DNA of 40,723 bases from a bacterium (GTDB lineage Bacteria > Patescibacteriota > Gracilibacteria > JAHISY01), in NCBI GenBank assembly GCA_021779375.1, contig JAJYAT010000001.1:1-40723 (forward strand). Reading direction: 5' to 3'. How positions within the stretch are numbered: the first letter of the stretch is position 1; every line of letters begins with the position of its first letter. The translations under genes and the position numbers were made by a program. This document shows, one piece after another, positions 8,141-40,667 of this stretch. The notes under the pieces are model-generated. The model saw only the letters and a program-made list of their open reading frames with translations. It made no database searches and had not been told where the DNA came from.

Positions 8141-9835
8141 TTACTTGATTCGCGTATTTTTCAGCGCATCGCCCGGTGCGACCATCGGGAAAACATTTTC
8201 CTCAGGCTCGATGAGATATTCGACCAAGACTGGACCGGGAGTTTTCGCTGCCTTCTGCGTGATGGCGAGTGCTTCGGAGACTTTCGTGACGCGAAAAGCT
8301 TTGATGCCGCAAGCTTCGGCGAGCTTCACGAAGTCGGGATTCATGAGTGGAGTGGACGAATAATTTTTATTGTAAAAAAGTTCCTGCCACTGGCGCACCA
8401 TACCGAGAAATCCGTTGTTGAAAACAGCTATTTTTAAAGGAATTTTATCCTGTGCGAGTGTCGTCAATTCTTGGATGTTCATCTGAATCCCGCCGTCACC
8501 CGTCAGGCACCAGACTGGAATCTTGGGCTGCGCGACCGCCGCGCCGAGCGCCGCCGGCAAGCCGTAACCCATCGAGCCGAGTCCGCCGGAGGAAAGCAGC
8601 CGTCCCGGTTTGCGGAATTGGAAGTGCATCGCCGCCCACATTTGATTTTGTCCGACGTCTGAGACGATGAAAGCATCGGGCGAAACTTTATTGATCGCGT
8701 GGACGACTTCGACGGCACGCAAGCGTTTCGGATTTTTTTTCTTTTCAATCGCGAGCAACTGCGCTTCGACCTTTTCCGCGTAAGCGCGAATCTCAGCCAA
8801 CCACGCAGCATTTTTTTGCGGCGCGATTTTTTGGTTTAATTTCACGAGCGCATCGCGCGCGTCGGCGATGACCGGCGCATCTGGGCGAATGATCTTGCCG
8901 ATTTCCGCCGGATCGATGTCGATATGAATGACTTTGGCGTGTGCCGCGAATTCACTTAATTTACCTGTGATGCGATCATCGAAACGCGCACCGACCGCAA
9001 TAATGAGATCCGCGTGCGAAATCGCGAAATTCGCCTCCGGCGAACCGTGCATCCCGAGCATGCCTAAATAATTTTTGTGACCAAACGGAATCGAAGAAAT
9101 GCCGAGCAAAGTCGCGACCACCGGCGCATCGAGCTGCGCGACGAATTTCTGCATCTCGACAGACGCACCCGCAATCAAGACACCGTGCCCGGAAATCACG
9201 ACGGGCTTGCGCGCAGCGCGAATCAGCTCAGCGGCTTTTTGGACTTGCGCGGCTTCCGCCGGTCCCCGCGGCAAATAACCCGGCAAATTAATTTTCGTTT
9301 TTTGGTAGTCGAAATCCGCGAATCCAATCTGCGCATCCTTCGTCACATCGATGTGAATCGGTCCCGGTCGGCTGTTTTTCGCCAGGTAAAATGCTTCGCG
9401 AATCGTCGGCGCGAGATCCGCCGCCCGCGTCACGAGATAATTGTGTTTCGTAATCGGTAAAGTAATCCCGGTCATGTCGGCTTCCTGGAAAGCGTCCGAG
9501 CCAACTAAATCACTCGGGACTTGTCCCGTGATAGCGACCAGCGGAATCGAATCGAGAAAAGCATTCGCGATACCGGTAATGAGATTGGTCGCACCCGGAC
9601 CGGAAGTCGCGAGACAGACGCCGACCTTGCCACTCGCACGCGCGTAACCCTCCGCCGCGAATGCCGCACCCTGCTCGTGTCGCGTCAGTACATGCCGAAT
9701 TTTTTTGGAGTAATTCGTGAGCGCATGATACAAAGGCAAAACCTGTCCGCCTGGATAGCCGAAAATCGTATCGACACCTTCGGCGATCAAACTTTCGAAG
9801 ACGATTTCGCTGCCTGTTTTTTGCACGAAAACCAT
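8141..9835 (-). CDS. ilvB: Acetolactate (acetohydroxyacid) synthase large subunit
   Basis: I choose ATG at 9835 (564 residues); an upstream TTG at 9862 would add nine residues. The enzyme condenses two pyruvates, or pyruvate and 2-oxobutyrate, in the first common step of branched-chain amino-acid synthesis. It is ThDP-dependent. Visible are the N-terminal FGYPGG, the activating Glu in HEQGAAFAAEGYARA (E54), SGPGATN, the FAD-domain GARFDDR, and the ThDP motif GDGGIQMNIQEL ending in NNGF. The ThDP-enzyme folds are complete. No regulatory subunit gene (ilvN) and no other ilv gene lies in the window. It diverges from groES across 79 bases. Confidence 0.95.
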   Translation of the reverse strand: MVFVQKTGSEIVFESLIAEGVDTIFGYPGGQVLPLYHALTNYSKKIRHVLTRHEQGAAFAAEGYARASGKVGVCLATSGPGATNLITGIANAFLDSIPLVAITGQVPSDLVGSDAFQEADMTGITLPITKHNYLVTRAADLAPTIREAFYLAKNSRPGPIHIDVTKDAQIGFADFDYQKTKINLPGYLPRGPAEAAQVQKAAELIRAARKPVVISGHGVLIAGASVEMQKFVAQLDAPVVATLLGISSIPFGHKNYLGMLGMHGSPEANFAISHADLIIAVGARFDDRITGKLSEFAAHAKVIHIDIDPAEIGKIIRPDAPVIADARDALVKLNQKIAPQKNAAWLAEIRAYAEKVEAQLLAIEKKKNPKRLRAVEVVHAINKVSPDAFIVSDVGQNQMWAAMHFQFRKPGRLLSSGGLGSMGYGLPAALGAAVAQPKIPVWCLTGDGGIQMNIQELTTLAQDKIPLKIAVFNNGFLGMVRQWQELFYNKNYSSTPLMNPDFVKLAEACGIKAFRVTKVSEALAITQKAAKTPGPVLVEYLIEPEENVFPMVAPGDALKNTRIK

Positions 9836-9852
9836 TCTAACGGCTAGAAATC

Positions 9853-9881
9853 TTGACTTCAAGCCATTTGGAAATTAAACT
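9853..9881 (+). promoter_or_regulatory. Sigma70-type promoter of the groES-groEL operon
   Basis: TTGACT at 9853-9858 and TAAACT at 9876-9881 are separated by 17 bases, 33 bases upstream of the groES ATG. No CIRCE inverted repeat (TTAGCACTC...GAGTGCTAA) is visible, so HrcA control is not indicated by this sequence. Confidence 0.5.
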
Positions 9882-18735: not shown

Positions 18736-19119
18736 CTACTCGTAGTCAGGAACATCACCAAGTTTTACCGCTCCTGTTCGAGTCGCTGCATATGCGACTT
18801 TATTGTAATCTTCGAGTCCTGCCCCACTTTGTTCCGCCAGCTTTCTCAGACCGTCTAAGCCAAACGCCACACCAATTTCTGCATAAATTTTTTCTGCTTT
18901 TGTATCATCAATTGTTTTATCAAGTGCTGCTCTGATTTTCAAAAGCGCGTCTAACTCCCCAAAATAATCCTCAATTACCTCAATGGCTCGCTGAGGATTA
19001 ATACTTTCAGCTCTAGGAGTAGCAGCTCCTTCAAGTTTATTCCTAATCCTAGGATCTACTTCTGGAGGCAAAGCCCCCTTTGTCTCCAATATTTCATCGC
19101 TTTTGTCTTTGTCGCTCAT
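18736..19119 (-). CDS. Orphan small acidic protein
   Basis: The protein is 127 residues and not recognised. The N-terminal 50 residues are polar and probably disordered (KDKSDEILETKGALPPEVDPR). The rest is predicted helical by composition, with RAIEVIEDYFGELDALLKIRAALDKTIDD and a glycine-containing FGLDGLRKLAEQSGAGLEDYNKVAYAATRTG. There is no signal peptide, membrane segment or cysteine. Codon use is less GC-rich than purM next door, from which it diverges. ATG 19119 is the first possible start after the shared AT-rich spacer. Confidence 0.65.
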   Translation of the reverse strand: MSDKDKSDEILETKGALPPEVDPRIRNKLEGAATPRAESINPQRAIEVIEDYFGELDALLKIRAALDKTIDDTKAEKIYAEIGVAFGLDGLRKLAEQSGAGLEDYNKVAYAATRTGAVKLGDVPDYE

Positions 19120-20279: not shown

Positions 20280-20690
20280 ATGTCCAAAGTCCCCGCCCGC
20301 AATCGTTTCCTGGTCGCGCTCCCGCTCGGTCTCGCTTTCGGTGTTCTGTGTGCTTGGCTCGCTTCGCAAAAAGATCCCACAATTTTCGACGTGAAATCTT
20401 TTATGTTTTGGACAATCGTGTGGAATCGCTTTTTGATTGGACTCATCATTGGCTTCGCGGGCGCATTCACCCGGCATCCGGTTTTTGGTTTTCGCTGCCC
20501 GGCCTTTTTGCGCGGCATCGTCCTCGGCGCAGTCGTCTCACTCGCGCTCGCCTTCGGCGCGCTGATTGCCCCGATTGAAAATGCAGCGCAGATTTTTTGG
20601 CTGACAGTCGGCGTCGGCGCATTTTATGGACTCATCATCGATCTCATCGCGACCAAAGTCGGCGGCGAAGGCAAAAGTTTGGTTGCGTAA
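20280..20690 (+). CDS. Small integral membrane protein, function unknown
   Basis: The protein is 136 residues with about four membrane segments (roughly 9-28, 41-63, 76-97 and 104-124) and short loops (for example TRHPVFGFRCPAF). No family is recognised. It starts 17 bases after purM and may be read with it. The basic N-terminus suggests an N-in topology. There is no signal peptide beyond the first helix. Confidence 0.7.
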   Translation: MSKVPARNRFLVALPLGLAFGVLCAWLASQKDPTIFDVKSFMFWTIVWNRFLIGLIIGFAGAFTRHPVFGFRCPAFLRGIVLGAVVSLALAFGALIAPIENAAQIFWLTVGVGAFYGLIIDLIATKVGGEGKSLVA

Positions 20691-20797: not shown

Positions 20798-22186
20798 ATG
20801 AAACTCTGGCAAACAAAATCCTCGCAAAAACTTGATCCGTTCATCGAGATTTTCACGGTCGGACCAGATTTGATTTGGGACAAATATCTGCTGCCCTTCG
20901 ATTGTCTCGCATCAGCTGCTCACGCTTTCATGCTACAAAAACAAGGTTATTTGAAAGTCGGTGAATTTCAAAAAGTTAAAAAGGTTCTGCACGAAATTTA
21001 TTCGAAAGCCCACGCGCGCCAGTTTGAACTCAAAAACGTCGAAGACAGTCACTCCGCCATCGAGGGCTTACTGACACACCGGCTCGGCGAACTCGGCGGC
21101 AAGATTCACCTCGGGCGCAGCCGCAATGACCAGTCCGCGACGACGATTCATCTTTTTGCGAAAGACGAGCTGCTCAAAATTCGGAAGGCACTTCTCACGC
21201 TAATCGAAATTTTGCAGTCACTAGCGAAAAAATACGCCGAGACACCCATGCCGGGCTACACACACACACGTCCAGCCATGGTCGCGACGCTCGGACATTA
21301 TTTCGCCGCCTTCGCCGAAACGCTCTCGGTGGATTACGTCAGCGTGCAAGCCGCCTTCGAGGCGGTCGACCGCTGTCCACTCGGGTCAGCTGCCGGCTAT
21401 GGCACCTCGGTCGCGATTGACCGAAAATTGACAGCGAAATTACTCGGCTTCGAGGAGCTGCAGATCAACACGCTCTCCGCCCAACTAGGCCGCGGTCAGG
21501 TCGAGACGACGACACTCGGCGCGCTAACGAATGTCGCGCTGACGCTTTCGCGCCTGGCGAATGATTTGATTTATTTTTCCACGCCCGAATTTGATTTCTT
21601 CGAATTGTCCGATGTTATCGCGACTGGCAGCTCCATCATGCCGCAGAAAAAAAATCCCGATCCGCTCGAGATTATTCGCGCTGCCGCCGGTATGCTCGTC
21701 GGCGCGCACACACAGACTGCGACGATCGTGAAAGGTCTGCCCGCAGGCTACCAACGCGATTTGCAGCTTCTGAAGCAGCCCTTCGTCCAGGGCGTGAAGC
21801 TCTCGAAACACTCGTTCCAGGCAATGCAAATCGTGCTGCAAAATCTGAAGGTGAACTCCAAAAAGCTCGAAAAAGCCGCAAGCGACACGCACCTCTTTGC
21901 GGCGGACCTCGCGAATGAATTAGTTTTGAAAAAAGGTCTGAGCTTCCGTGAAGCTTATCGGAAGGTAAAAGAGAGCTACACGCACGCCGGCTGGCGCGGC
22001 GTAATCGAATTCGACGATGTCCCGCGCTTCGATCCAGTGAAACAAATCCGCAGCAAAAAATCTGACGGTATGCCGGGCAATCTGCGGCTCGACGTCGGGC
22101 GCAAATGGCTCGCAGCACAATCACGAAAAATGGCGGGCGAAACGAAAAGATTCGAGAATGCGCTCGAAAAGATTTGGCAACTGTGA
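20798..22186 (+). CDS. argH: Argininosuccinate lyase
   Basis: The 462-residue protein is full length. It splits argininosuccinate into arginine and fumarate, the last step of arginine synthesis. The superfamily signature GSSIMPQKKNPDPLE is present, as are HLGRSRNDQSATTIH, the TPMPGYTHTRPAMVATLGHYF region and the CPLGSAAGYGTS loop. It begins a rightward run with lysW 46 bases downstream. argF is near the right end of the window; argG is not seen. Confidence 0.96.
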   Translation: MKLWQTKSSQKLDPFIEIFTVGPDLIWDKYLLPFDCLASAAHAFMLQKQGYLKVGEFQKVKKVLHEIYSKAHARQFELKNVEDSHSAIEGLLTHRLGELGGKIHLGRSRNDQSATTIHLFAKDELLKIRKALLTLIEILQSLAKKYAETPMPGYTHTRPAMVATLGHYFAAFAETLSVDYVSVQAAFEAVDRCPLGSAAGYGTSVAIDRKLTAKLLGFEELQINTLSAQLGRGQVETTTLGALTNVALTLSRLANDLIYFSTPEFDFFELSDVIATGSSIMPQKKNPDPLEIIRAAAGMLVGAHTQTATIVKGLPAGYQRDLQLLKQPFVQGVKLSKHSFQAMQIVLQNLKVNSKKLEKAASDTHLFAADLANELVLKKGLSFREAYRKVKESYTHAGWRGVIEFDDVPRFDPVKQIRSKKSDGMPGNLRLDVGRKWLAAQSRKMAGETKRFENALEKIWQL

Positions 22187-22232: not shown

Positions 22233-22409
22233 ATGCCTAAAACTGCCAAATGCCCGCAATGCGACGCGGATCTCATCATCACGGCTGATGCCGAAGTCGG
22301 CGAAATTATCAGCTGCGATGAATGCGGCGCGGAACTCGAAGTGAAAGCACTCACGCCAAACGTCGTGCTCGACGATGCACCCGCCGTCAAAGAAGATTGG
22401 GGCGAATAA
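22233..22409 (+). CDS. lysW: LysW-type amino-group carrier protein
   Basis: The protein has only 58 residues. It has an N-terminal zinc ribbon, CPQC at 7-10 and CDEC at 28-31, then GAELEVKAL and an acidic tail ending in EDWGE, identical to the C-terminus of LysW from Thermus. In the known pathway the gamma-carboxyl of the terminal Glu (E58 here) is joined to the amino group of 2-aminoadipate (lysine route) or glutamate (ornithine/arginine route), which protects the intermediate and carries it between enzymes. Position right after argH favours the arginine branch, but a lysine role or both cannot be excluded. It lies 6 bases before the MBL-fold gene. Confidence 0.9.
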   Translation: MPKTAKCPQCDADLIITADAEVGEIISCDECGAELEVKALTPNVVLDDAPAVKEDWGE

Positions 22410-23021: not shown

Positions 23022-23672
23022 GTGATTATTGTTAATTTCAAAACTTACGAGTCGGCGGTCGGTGAAAATGCCATCGCCCTCGCGAAAATTCACGAGCTCA
23101 TCGCCGCTGAGACCGGCGCACCAATCGCCGTCGCCGTGAATGCGCTCGACCTCGCGCGCGTCGTCGCGGCGGTCAAGATTCCAGTTTTCGCGCAACACAC
23201 CGACGCGGCTGGTTTCGGCAGCTTCACCGGATCAATCGTGCCTGAGCTTTTGCAGAAAATGGGCGTCGCCGGAACTTTGCTGAATCATTCTGAAAAACGA
23301 GTCGTAGAAAAATTACCCGAGCTCGTCGCCGCCGCGAAAAAAGCCGGACTGCAAATCGTGATCTGCGCGGAAGATGATGACGAGGCGGCTGAATTTGCCG
23401 AAAAATATGAGCCGGATTTTGTCGCCGTAGAACCGCCGGAATTGATTGGCGGCGAGATTTCCGTGACTTCGGCGAATCCACAAATCATCGAACATTCCGT
23501 CGCGAAAGTCGGCGCGATTCCCCTGCTCGTCGGCGCGGGCGTGAAAAACGGCACAGATGTCGCGACTGCCATCAAGCTCGGCGCAGCCGGCGTGCTGCTC
23601 GCGAGCGGCGTGACGAAGGCTGCCAACCCGGCGGAAGTTTTGCGCGACCTCGCGCGTGGCTTAATTTCTTAA
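23022..23672 (+). CDS. tpiA: Triosephosphate isomerase, archaeal type
   Basis: The 216-residue protein is much shorter than bacterial TIM (about 250). It interconverts dihydroxyacetone phosphate and glyceraldehyde 3-phosphate. Catalytic residues are in place: N5 and K7 in NFKTY, H89 in GTLLNHSEKR, E137 in VAVEPPELIGG. The phosphate-binding part LLVGAGVKNGTDVATAIKLG and VLLASGVTKA follows the archaeal pattern. The GTG start is fixed by the NFKTY motif. It follows the MBL gene and precedes the hibernation factor on the same strand. Confidence 0.93.
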   Translation: MIIVNFKTYESAVGENAIALAKIHELIAAETGAPIAVAVNALDLARVVAAVKIPVFAQHTDAAGFGSFTGSIVPELLQKMGVAGTLLNHSEKRVVEKLPELVAAAKKAGLQIVICAEDDDEAAEFAEKYEPDFVAVEPPELIGGEISVTSANPQIIEHSVAKVGAIPLLVGAGVKNGTDVATAIKLGAAGVLLASGVTKAANPAEVLRDLARGLIS

Positions 23673-38501: not shown

Positions 38502-39785
38502 ATGCTTAAACTTCTTTGCAATTCCTGCCAAAAGGAATTCGCGCTCACGGAAAATCGCGTCGTCTGCGACTGTGGTGGTCTACTCGATCTCGTTCAGCCG
38601 CTTGAGGAATTGAAGAAACTCGACCTCAAAAAGACTTTCGATGCTAGACTCGGCAGCCGCGCACTCCCTGACGGTAGCGGCGTCTGGCGTTTTCGCGAGC
38701 TTTTGTTCCCCGCGAAGAAAATTATTTCCAAATGGGAAGGCAATACCCGGCTGTATTTCTCAGAGAAAATTTCGCAAGAAATCGGCGCGGAAATATTTTT
38801 CAAACACGAAGGTGAAAATCCGAGTGGCAGCTTCAAAGACCGTGGGATGACTGCAGCAATCACTGCGGGTGCGTCAGCTGGTTGCCGTAACTTCGTCTGC
38901 GCCTCGACCGGCAACACCTCCGCCAGCCTCGCGAGCTACTGCGCCAATGCCGGACTGAATGGCATCGTGATTATTCCGGAAGGCAAAATCGCATTTGGCA
39001 AATTGAGCCAGGCTTTGGCTTTCGGCGCGAAAGTGCTGCAAATCAAGGGGAATTTTGACGCCGCGATGCAGCTCGTCAATGAGCTCAGTCGCAAGTTCGA
39101 TCCTGAGAATCCGAGCGAGTCAGTTTATATTTTGAACTCAGTGAATCCGTTTCGGGTCGAGGGTCAGAAGACCATCGTGCTGGAAATTTTGCAGCAGCTG
39201 AATTGGGAGGCGCCGGATTGGATCGTGCTGCCTGCCGGCAATCTTGGAAATACTTCGGCTTTCGGCAAAGCCATCGCGGAAGCTTTCGCGCTCGGACTGA
39301 TTGCGAAAAAACCGCGTATCGCCGCCGTCCAGGCGGCTGGTGCGAATCCATTTTTCAAATATTTCCAATCCGGCTGGACGAAATTCGAAGCTGTGGAAGA
39401 TCCCGAGACCGTCGCAACCGCCATCAAGATTGGAAATCCGCAGAGTTATTTGCGCGCGAAGAGAGCTATCGAGACAACGGATGGTGTCGTCCTCGAAGCC
39501 AGCGAGAATGAAATCTTGGATGCGAAAGCGACCATCGATGCCGCCGGCATCGGCTGTGAACCTGCCTCGGCCTGCTCGCTCGCTGGCATTCGCCAACTCG
39601 TGAAATCCGGCGAAATTAAAAAAGGTCAAAAAGTCGTCGGTGTGCTGACCGGTCACCTTTTGAAAGATCCGGACACGACCATCGACTATCACCTCGGTAA
39701 GCTCGCGAATGTCGAAATCAATAAAGCCAATCGACCAATCGCCATCGAAGCGAATGTAGATGCTTTTTTAAGCGCAATCCGCTAA
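38502..39785 (+). CDS. thrC: Threonine synthase
   Basis: The protein is 427 residues. It converts O-phosphohomoserine to threonine with PLP. The N-terminus has a small zinc ribbon (CNSC...CDCGG, residues 6-26), found in the archaeal/plant-like ThrC class. The PLP lysine is K112 in GSFKDRG, and the phosphate loop follows in STGNTSASLASYCANAG and PAGNLGNTSAFGKA. Late motifs GIGCEPASACSLAGI and VLTGHLLKDP support ThrC over other fold-type II enzymes. Its TAA is part of the argF -10 box. No thrA or thrB is present in the window. Confidence 0.94.
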   Translation: MLKLLCNSCQKEFALTENRVVCDCGGLLDLVQPLEELKKLDLKKTFDARLGSRALPDGSGVWRFRELLFPAKKIISKWEGNTRLYFSEKISQEIGAEIFFKHEGENPSGSFKDRGMTAAITAGASAGCRNFVCASTGNTSASLASYCANAGLNGIVIIPEGKIAFGKLSQALAFGAKVLQIKGNFDAAMQLVNELSRKFDPENPSESVYILNSVNPFRVEGQKTIVLEILQQLNWEAPDWIVLPAGNLGNTSAFGKAIAEAFALGLIAKKPRIAAVQAAGANPFFKYFQSGWTKFEAVEDPETVATAIKIGNPQSYLRAKRAIETTDGVVLEASENEILDAKATIDAAGIGCEPASACSLAGIRQLVKSGEIKKGQKVVGVLTGHLLKDPDTTIDYHLGKLANVEINKANRPIAIEANVDAFLSAIR

Positions 39786-39794: not shown

Positions 39795-40667
39795 GTGAAA
39801 AAAGATTTTCTCTCCATCACCGACCTTTCGAAGGAGCAAATTTTGGAAGTACTCAATGTCGCCGCGAATGAAAAACGCGGCGCGACTTCGGAAATTTTGC
39901 GCGGTAAACAAATCGCGCTGTATTTCGAAAAACCAAGCCTGCGCACCAAAGCCAGTTTCGAAGTCGGAATTCACGAGCTCGGCGGTAATTTTTCGTATTT
40001 CTCCACCGTCGATGTCGGCAAGCTCGGCGAACGTGAGAGCATCGACGATTTTGCCAAAGTTTTGTCGGGCTATTTTGACCTAGTGGTCGCGCGCGTTTTC
40101 GAGCACGAGAATCTGGAAAAATTTGCTGAAGTCTCAGAAATTCCAGTCATCAATGCGCTGTCCGACCGCGAGCATCCCTGCCAAATTCTCGCCGACCTGC
40201 TCACGATTCGCGACAAGCTCGGTCGGGTGAATAATTTCAAGCTCGTCTATCTCGGCGATGGTAATAATGTCGCGCTTTCGCTCGCGCTCGCCGCGGAAAT
40301 TTTGGGTTTTGAATTCGTGCTCGCCGGTCCGAAAAAATACCAGCTCGAATATCCGCAAATCAAACAAACTGAAAATCTCGACGAAGCACTCGCCGAGACG
40401 GATGTGATTTACACCGACACCTGGAATAGCATGGGTGAACCGAAAAAATCAGACGAGACGATTTTGACGCCTTTTCAACTGAATGCTGAAGTGCTCAAAA
40501 AAGCCAAACCCAGTGCCATCGTCTTGCACTGCCTCCCCGCCCACCGCGGCAAGGAAATCACGGACGAGGTGCTCGACGGTCCGCAGTCCGTCGTCTTCGC
40601 CCAAGCCGCGAATCGCTTGCCCGTCCAGAAAGCTTTGCTCGCGAAGATTTTTGCGCAGACTTTCTAA
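39795..40667 (+). CDS. argF: Ornithine carbamoyltransferase
   Basis: The 290-residue protein starts at GTG. It transfers the carbamoyl group from carbamoyl phosphate to ornithine, giving citrulline, the step before argininosuccinate synthesis. The carbamoyl-phosphate loop is KPSLRTKASFEVG (48-52 SLRTK, where many enzymes have STRTR). HPCQILADLLTI, the DTWNSMGEP loop that selects ornithine, and HCLPAHRGKEIT are all present. It is slightly shorter than the usual 300-330 residues. With argH and lysW in the same window it supports an arginine route starting from carrier-bound glutamate. Confidence 0.94.
   Translation: MKKDFLSITDLSKEQILEVLNVAANEKRGATSEILRGKQIALYFEKPSLRTKASFEVGIHELGGNFSYFSTVDVGKLGERESIDDFAKVLSGYFDLVVARVFEHENLEKFAEVSEIPVINALSDREHPCQILADLLTIRDKLGRVNNFKLVYLGDGNNVALSLALAAEILGFEFVLAGPKKYQLEYPQIKQTENLDEALAETDVIYTDTWNSMGEPKKSDETILTPFQLNAEVLKKAKPSAIVLHCLPAHRGKEITDEVLDGPQSVVFAQAANRLPVQKALLAKIFAQTF

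Follow-up and report, generated by a model that had tools for sequence, protein, structure and literature searches.

The synthesis of arginine on the carrier protein LysW is best known from archaea. Bacteria of the Candidate Phyla Radiation (CPR) are generally described as being without complete amino acid biosynthesis, and are thought to scavenge amino acids. In characterized LysW, the last glutamate of the C-terminal EDWGE is the attachment site for the substrate amino group, and a GSWGR motif in the ligase LysX/ArgX recognizes EDWGE (PMC10433800). Replacement of Asn-Thr by Gly-Phe in a signature motif of Sulfolobus LysX shifts the enzyme towards glutamate, and TkLysX is bifunctional (PMC10433800). 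Here we describe a lysW gene from a Gracilibacterium of the CPR and infer from the genome sequence that the LysW-mediated arginine pathway is very probably complete in this organism.

The stretch analysed (hereafter the window; 40,723 nucleotides) lies at the beginning of contig C12. The genome comprises 1,073,675 bp in 14 contigs and is 98.3% complete and 0.39% contaminated. An open reading frame at 22233..22409 (forward strand) encodes the amino-group carrier protein LysW/ArgW, with the translation MPKTAKCPQCDADLIITADAEVGEIISCDECGAELEVKALTPNVVLDDAPAVKEDWGE. The original prediction of a 58-residue LysW with a zinc ribbon and an exact EDWGE tail is borne out, as the protein exceeds the cut-offs of both Pfam PF21344 (52.9 bits, cut-off 27) and NCBIfam TIGR01206 lysW (59.4 bits, cut-off 53.2). 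The four zinc-ribbon cysteines (C7, C10, C28 and C31; 22251..22325, forward strand) fall in the same columns in alignments with LysW proteins of the PDB, including 3wwl, and the protein ends in KEDWGE, with EDWGE encoded at 22392..22406 (forward strand). Among solved structures, Thermus LysW (3wwl, E 6e-11) is the nearest, and the alignment with it runs through EDWGE; further PDB relatives are 5k2m and 3vpb. In the whole-genome search the match was far above chance (E 6e-14); apart from lysW itself, only a distant paralogue, also on C12, was found.

Directly upstream is argH, encoding argininosuccinate lyase (20798..22186, forward strand; TIGR00838 340 bits, cut-off 279.5). The lysW start is 46 bp downstream of argH, and a gene for a protein of the metallo-beta-lactamase fold lies 6 bp 3' of lysW. 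The original prediction named argF as a second neighbor, and here it held only in part. The gene for ornithine carbamoyltransferase (39795..40667, forward strand; TIGR00658 315.5 bits, cut-off 280.85; NF001986 340.4 bits, cut-off 306) is within the window, but 17 kb from lysW and not adjacent to it. Also present in the window are a triose-phosphate isomerase (23022-23672, forward strand) that scores 238.6 bits to NF003302 (cut-off 132) versus 147.3 bits to the general TIM model, and two open reading frames of 127 and 136 aa (18736-19119, reverse strand, and 20280-20690, forward strand) that match no Pfam or NCBIfam family.

We examined the genome by whole-genome family searches and in the stretches around the matches. 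Homologues of LysX, LysZ, ArgC/LysY, LysJ and LysK, which the original prediction had led us to look for, were all identified, as were ArgF, ArgG and ArgH, and the genes are spread over five contigs (C1, C4, C10, C12 and C14). The LysZ-type kinase on C1 passes NF010659, [LysW]-aminoadipate kinase (240.8 bits, cut-off 223), and is under the cut-off of the ArgB model (124.8 versus 151.3). Adjoining it is argC (339.5 bits, cut-off 233.6), and this pair lies beside a ribosomal protein cluster. On C10, beside a histidine gene cluster, lysJ and lysK lie near each other with two small reverse-strand open reading frames in between. LysJ/ArgD scores about 404 bits to the argD model and to the Thermus LysJ model alike. 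LysK scores 311 bits to TIGR01902 (cut-off 163) and 344.7 bits to the [LysW]-lysine hydrolase model NF003367 (cut-off 363). Both proteins are under their strictest equivalog cut-offs. A second M20 peptidase, on C2, scores 89.5 bits to TIGR01902, versus 311 for the C10 copy, and was not accepted as LysK. The argG gene is on C14 (511.5 bits, cut-off 334).

Genes of the acetylated route were also sought. ArgJ has no match anywhere in the whole genome. The genome encodes four amino-acid kinases (aspartate kinase, ProB, PyrH and LysZ); since all four AAK proteins are thus accounted for, there is no AAK-type ArgA and no second ArgB among them. For ArgJ and AAK-type ArgA, this agrees with the absence that the original prediction had proposed to check.

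From these genes we predict the following reactions, in this order and with glutamate as substrate. ArgX (C4) would link glutamate, through its alpha-amino group, to the side chain of the C-terminal glutamate in LysW. The bound glutamate would then be phosphorylated by LysZ and reduced by ArgC/LysY (both C1), and transamination by LysJ would give LysW-ornithine, from which LysK (both C10) would hydrolyze off ornithine and free LysW. ArgF, ArgG and ArgH would convert ornithine to arginine. LysW would thereby take the role that acetyl groups have in the common pathway: with the amino group blocked, the semialdehyde could not cyclize to proline precursors. LysW may also be a docking surface for the enzymes.

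The ligase (L010:9528-10388, reverse strand, contig C4) is an ATP-grasp protein of the LysX/ArgX type. It scores 273.7-274.2 bits to TIGR02144, just below the curated LysX cut-off of 275.6, and 228 bits to TtLysX (3vpd), and has GSWGR at residues 134-138. A second RimK-like ATP-grasp protein (L011:8924-9808, forward strand, contig C14) was rejected as ArgX, with 77.7 bits to TIGR02144 and 118 bits to rimK_fam, under the cut-off of that model. Among GTDB contigs the closest relative of the ligase, at 79% identity, is from a Candidatus Gracilibacteria metagenome-assembled genome (NCBI phylum Candidatus Altimarinota), and thus the original guess of a CPR genome was right. The next relatives are from Chloroflexi, at about 50% identity.

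The same proteins could instead make lysine from alpha-aminoadipate, like those of Thermus, and two features are in keeping with such a role: the model that the kinase passes is named for aminoadipate, and the ligase has, near the substrate site, a WITNTARG stretch identical to that of AAA-using LysX. WITNTARG is, however, carried by both the AAA-specific TtLysX and the bifunctional TkLysX. We therefore dropped it as a substrate marker and used the residues after EF[HKR] instead. That position probably corresponds to the published signature motif, with which we equated it by matching letters. It reads EFHGL in the ligase, EFKGF in StArgX, EFKNS in TtLysX and EFKN in TkLysX. We compared motif and gene context over 79 related loci. 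Where arginine genes alone are nearby, 45 of 47 ligase copies have [HK][TSG] at this position; where aminoadipate genes are nearby, nine of ten have NS (Fisher p 6e-8, which is only indicative because the loci are phylogenetically non-independent). In the ligase tree the window genome and the Gracilibacteria copy are sisters within a clade (support 100/95) whose eight members all have EF[HK]GL. Several of these are encoded in loci of Chloroflexia and Rubrobacter in which there is a second LysX, of the FRNS type.

Homocitrate synthase catalyzes the first step of the aminoadipate pathway. None was identified among the HMGL-family proteins of the genome, which are LeuA (776 bits to NF002086), a citramalate synthase CimA (684 bits, cut-off 450) and a partly matched protein of 1,220 aa taken to be a pyruvate-carboxylase-like enzyme. 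The genome does encode dapB. Given the missing homocitrate synthase and the presence of dapB, we expect lysine to be made by the DAP route and reject a lysine role for LysW. The motif and arginine-linked clade of the ligase, the position of argH directly upstream of lysW and the presence of argF and argG also speak against it, and we consider it very improbable. LysW is thus expected to carry glutamate towards arginine.

Gene order bears on the same question. In the usual operon of Chloroflexi (Anaerolineae, Chloroflexia), the order is argG-argH-lysW-lysX/argX-argC-lysZ-lysJ-lysK. Among related loci with both argH and lysW, lysW comes immediately after argH in 43 of 44; the corresponding counts are 54 of 65 for lysZ after argC and 37 of 41 for lysK after lysJ. 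The window genome keeps all three pairs in the Chloroflexi order, at three separate places. We interpret the argH-lysW pair of the window as most probably what is left of an arginine operon. As such, it supports the arginine assignment independently; since the genes are scattered, operon structure gives no evidence for the whole set. Two independent tests, ligase motif and clade on the one hand and gene-pair synteny on the other, agree on arginine. Together with the absence of homocitrate synthase and the presence of DapB, they support the arginine branch, which the original prediction had favored from the gene neighborhood.

The pathway might instead be bifunctional, like that suggested by TkLysX (PMC10433800) for Thermococcus, or an amino acid other than ornithine might be made on LysW. 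An unusual cluster in another CPR genome (G192; L065, G192:C1:191500-205500), with the order lysW-lysX-lysY-TPP enzyme-PALP-SHMT-like-lysZ, lends this some plausibility, as perhaps an unusual amino acid is built on LysW there. In the window genome there is no source of AAA, no extra modifying enzymes lie beside lysW, and the single ligase copy has the arginine-type motif; a second product is accordingly given very little weight. Our preferred reading remains that arginine is the product.

The LysX type is rare in the CPR. In a survey of 380 genomes sampled evenly across the phylum, a clear LysX was identified in four, three over the cut-off and the window genome just under it; the next genome scores 184 bits. 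LysW with EDWGE or EDWGQ was present in three of the 380. This rarity, and the finding that the relatives from outside the CPR are Chloroflexi, could indicate a binning artefact or a relic, with genes derived from another organism or out of use. We regard this as extremely unlikely. The genes are on five contigs, with argC-lysZ beside a ribosomal protein cluster, and contamination is 0.39%. In addition, a second Gracilibacteria genome encodes the same ligase (79% identity), all reading frames are intact and the key motifs are present. The Gracilibacterium probably makes its own arginine by the carrier-protein route.

Other CPR genomes encode related clusters of different content. One (G039; L058, G039:C63:1-18000) has a whole Thermus-like aminoadipate-lysine operon, including homocitrate synthase, homoaconitase, HICDH, three LysX copies, LysJ, LysY and LysZ. 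The LysW of this genome has 108 residues with two cysteine-bearing halves, and ends in EDWGQ. This tail replaces EDWGE at L029 and L058, and in three of 70 LysW read at LysX loci. If the C-terminal residue is glutamine, ligation would have to be preceded by deamidation, as is the case for Pup. In the lysW-lysX-argC-lysZ cluster of a 9-kb contig with the label Patescibacteria (L126), the ligase is of the aminoadipate type (FRNS).

The biosynthetic capacity of the window genome is unusually rich for the CPR (window 8141-9862, reverse strand, and 38502-39785, forward strand; L018, L025 and L026). Identified were acetolactate synthase, threonine synthase, histidine genes, LeuA, citramalate synthase and proA/B/C, and genes for NAD synthesis are likely. 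Also encoded is a 3-dehydroquinate synthase II (L012:11880-12878, reverse strand; NF002627 404.8 bits, cut-off 392), the type usual in archaea.

The distant LysW paralogue is encoded outside the window (G000:C12:129165-129318, equivalent to L012:9166-9318, reverse strand), where it was identified by a LysW-domain match. It is without EDWGE, ends in PVDEEK and scores 40.6 bits to TIGR01206 (cut-off 53.2). It belongs to a LysW-like family present in roughly 34 of the 380 CPR genomes. A terminal lysine was found in 33 of the 35 members whose ends were read, including all five members that were found only by the profile, having been left out of its building. An alignment of 22 members (29-84% identity to the first) shows no invariant residues other than four cysteines, one glycine and the C-terminal lysine. 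In 22 of 28 loci, a gene for a PALP enzyme lies no more than 600 bp away in divergent orientation; PDB profile comparison shows this enzyme to resemble threonine synthase. In five more loci the PALP gene is at a distance of 1.2-4.1 kb, and the last locus is on a short contig without PALP. All five profile-only members also have the PALP enzyme. Recurring neighbors are an ATP-grasp protein weakly similar to peptide ligases, a Mur ligase, an MraY-like transferase, a GNAT/ATE_C protein and an NlpC/P60-like peptidase, the last called by a DCSGF...H pattern.

We infer from these neighbors that the K-terminal family may act as a carrier or scaffold in a system associated with cell-wall synthesis. 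It is separate from the arginine pathway. More tentatively, the genome could use LysW-fold carriers twice: the EDWGE protein for arginine, and the K-terminal protein in a new system in which the terminal lysine would be the site where an amino acid, such as a diamino acid of the cell wall, is attached or assembled. We found no description of this family in the open-access literature, including in searches for LysW with peptidoglycan, and it provides a separate, testable lead.

The arginine pathway itself is known; the host lineage is new and rare. We found no description of a LysW arginine pathway in the CPR in the open-access literature, which is no proof that none exists. A nearly closed arginine route in a Gracilibacteria genome of 1.07 Mb suggests that some CPR bacteria keep or acquire such synthesis, and annotation that relies on ArgA and ArgJ would wrongly label them as arginine auxotrophs. 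The tie in gene order to Chloroflexi operons bears on whether the pathway was inherited or acquired in the CPR, and the ligase motif may be a simple means to separate arginine from lysine copies of LysX.

Among known systems, the Chloroflexi operon shares with the window genome the gene set and the order of the pairs argH-lysW, argC-lysZ and lysJ-lysK. In Chloroflexi the genes form one operon, whereas here they are at five places and lysJ and lysK are split by the two reverse-strand open reading frames. The lysine pathway of Thermus thermophilus provides the closest solved LysW (3wwl) and LysX (3vpd), and its LysZ and LysJ models match. Unlike the window genome, which is missing homocitrate synthase and has a ligase with EFHGL, T. 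thermophilus makes lysine from AAA with a ligase that has EFKNS. AmCP of Streptomyces is also a LysW-like amino-group carrier with an acidic C-terminus, but occurs in secondary metabolite clusters and is not known to serve arginine. Shared with the Sulfolobus LysW/ArgX and haloarchaeal ArgW pathways are the EDWGE carrier, the GSWGR ligase, the homologues of LysZ, LysY, LysJ and LysK, and ArgF, ArgG and ArgH (PMC10433800). Haloarchaea with the ArgW pathway use DAP for lysine (PMC10433800), as is likewise expected for the window genome. In contrast to these archaea, the host here is a CPR bacterium with scattered genes, and its ligase is nearer to the LysX of Thermus and Chloroflexi than to Sulfolobus ArgX.
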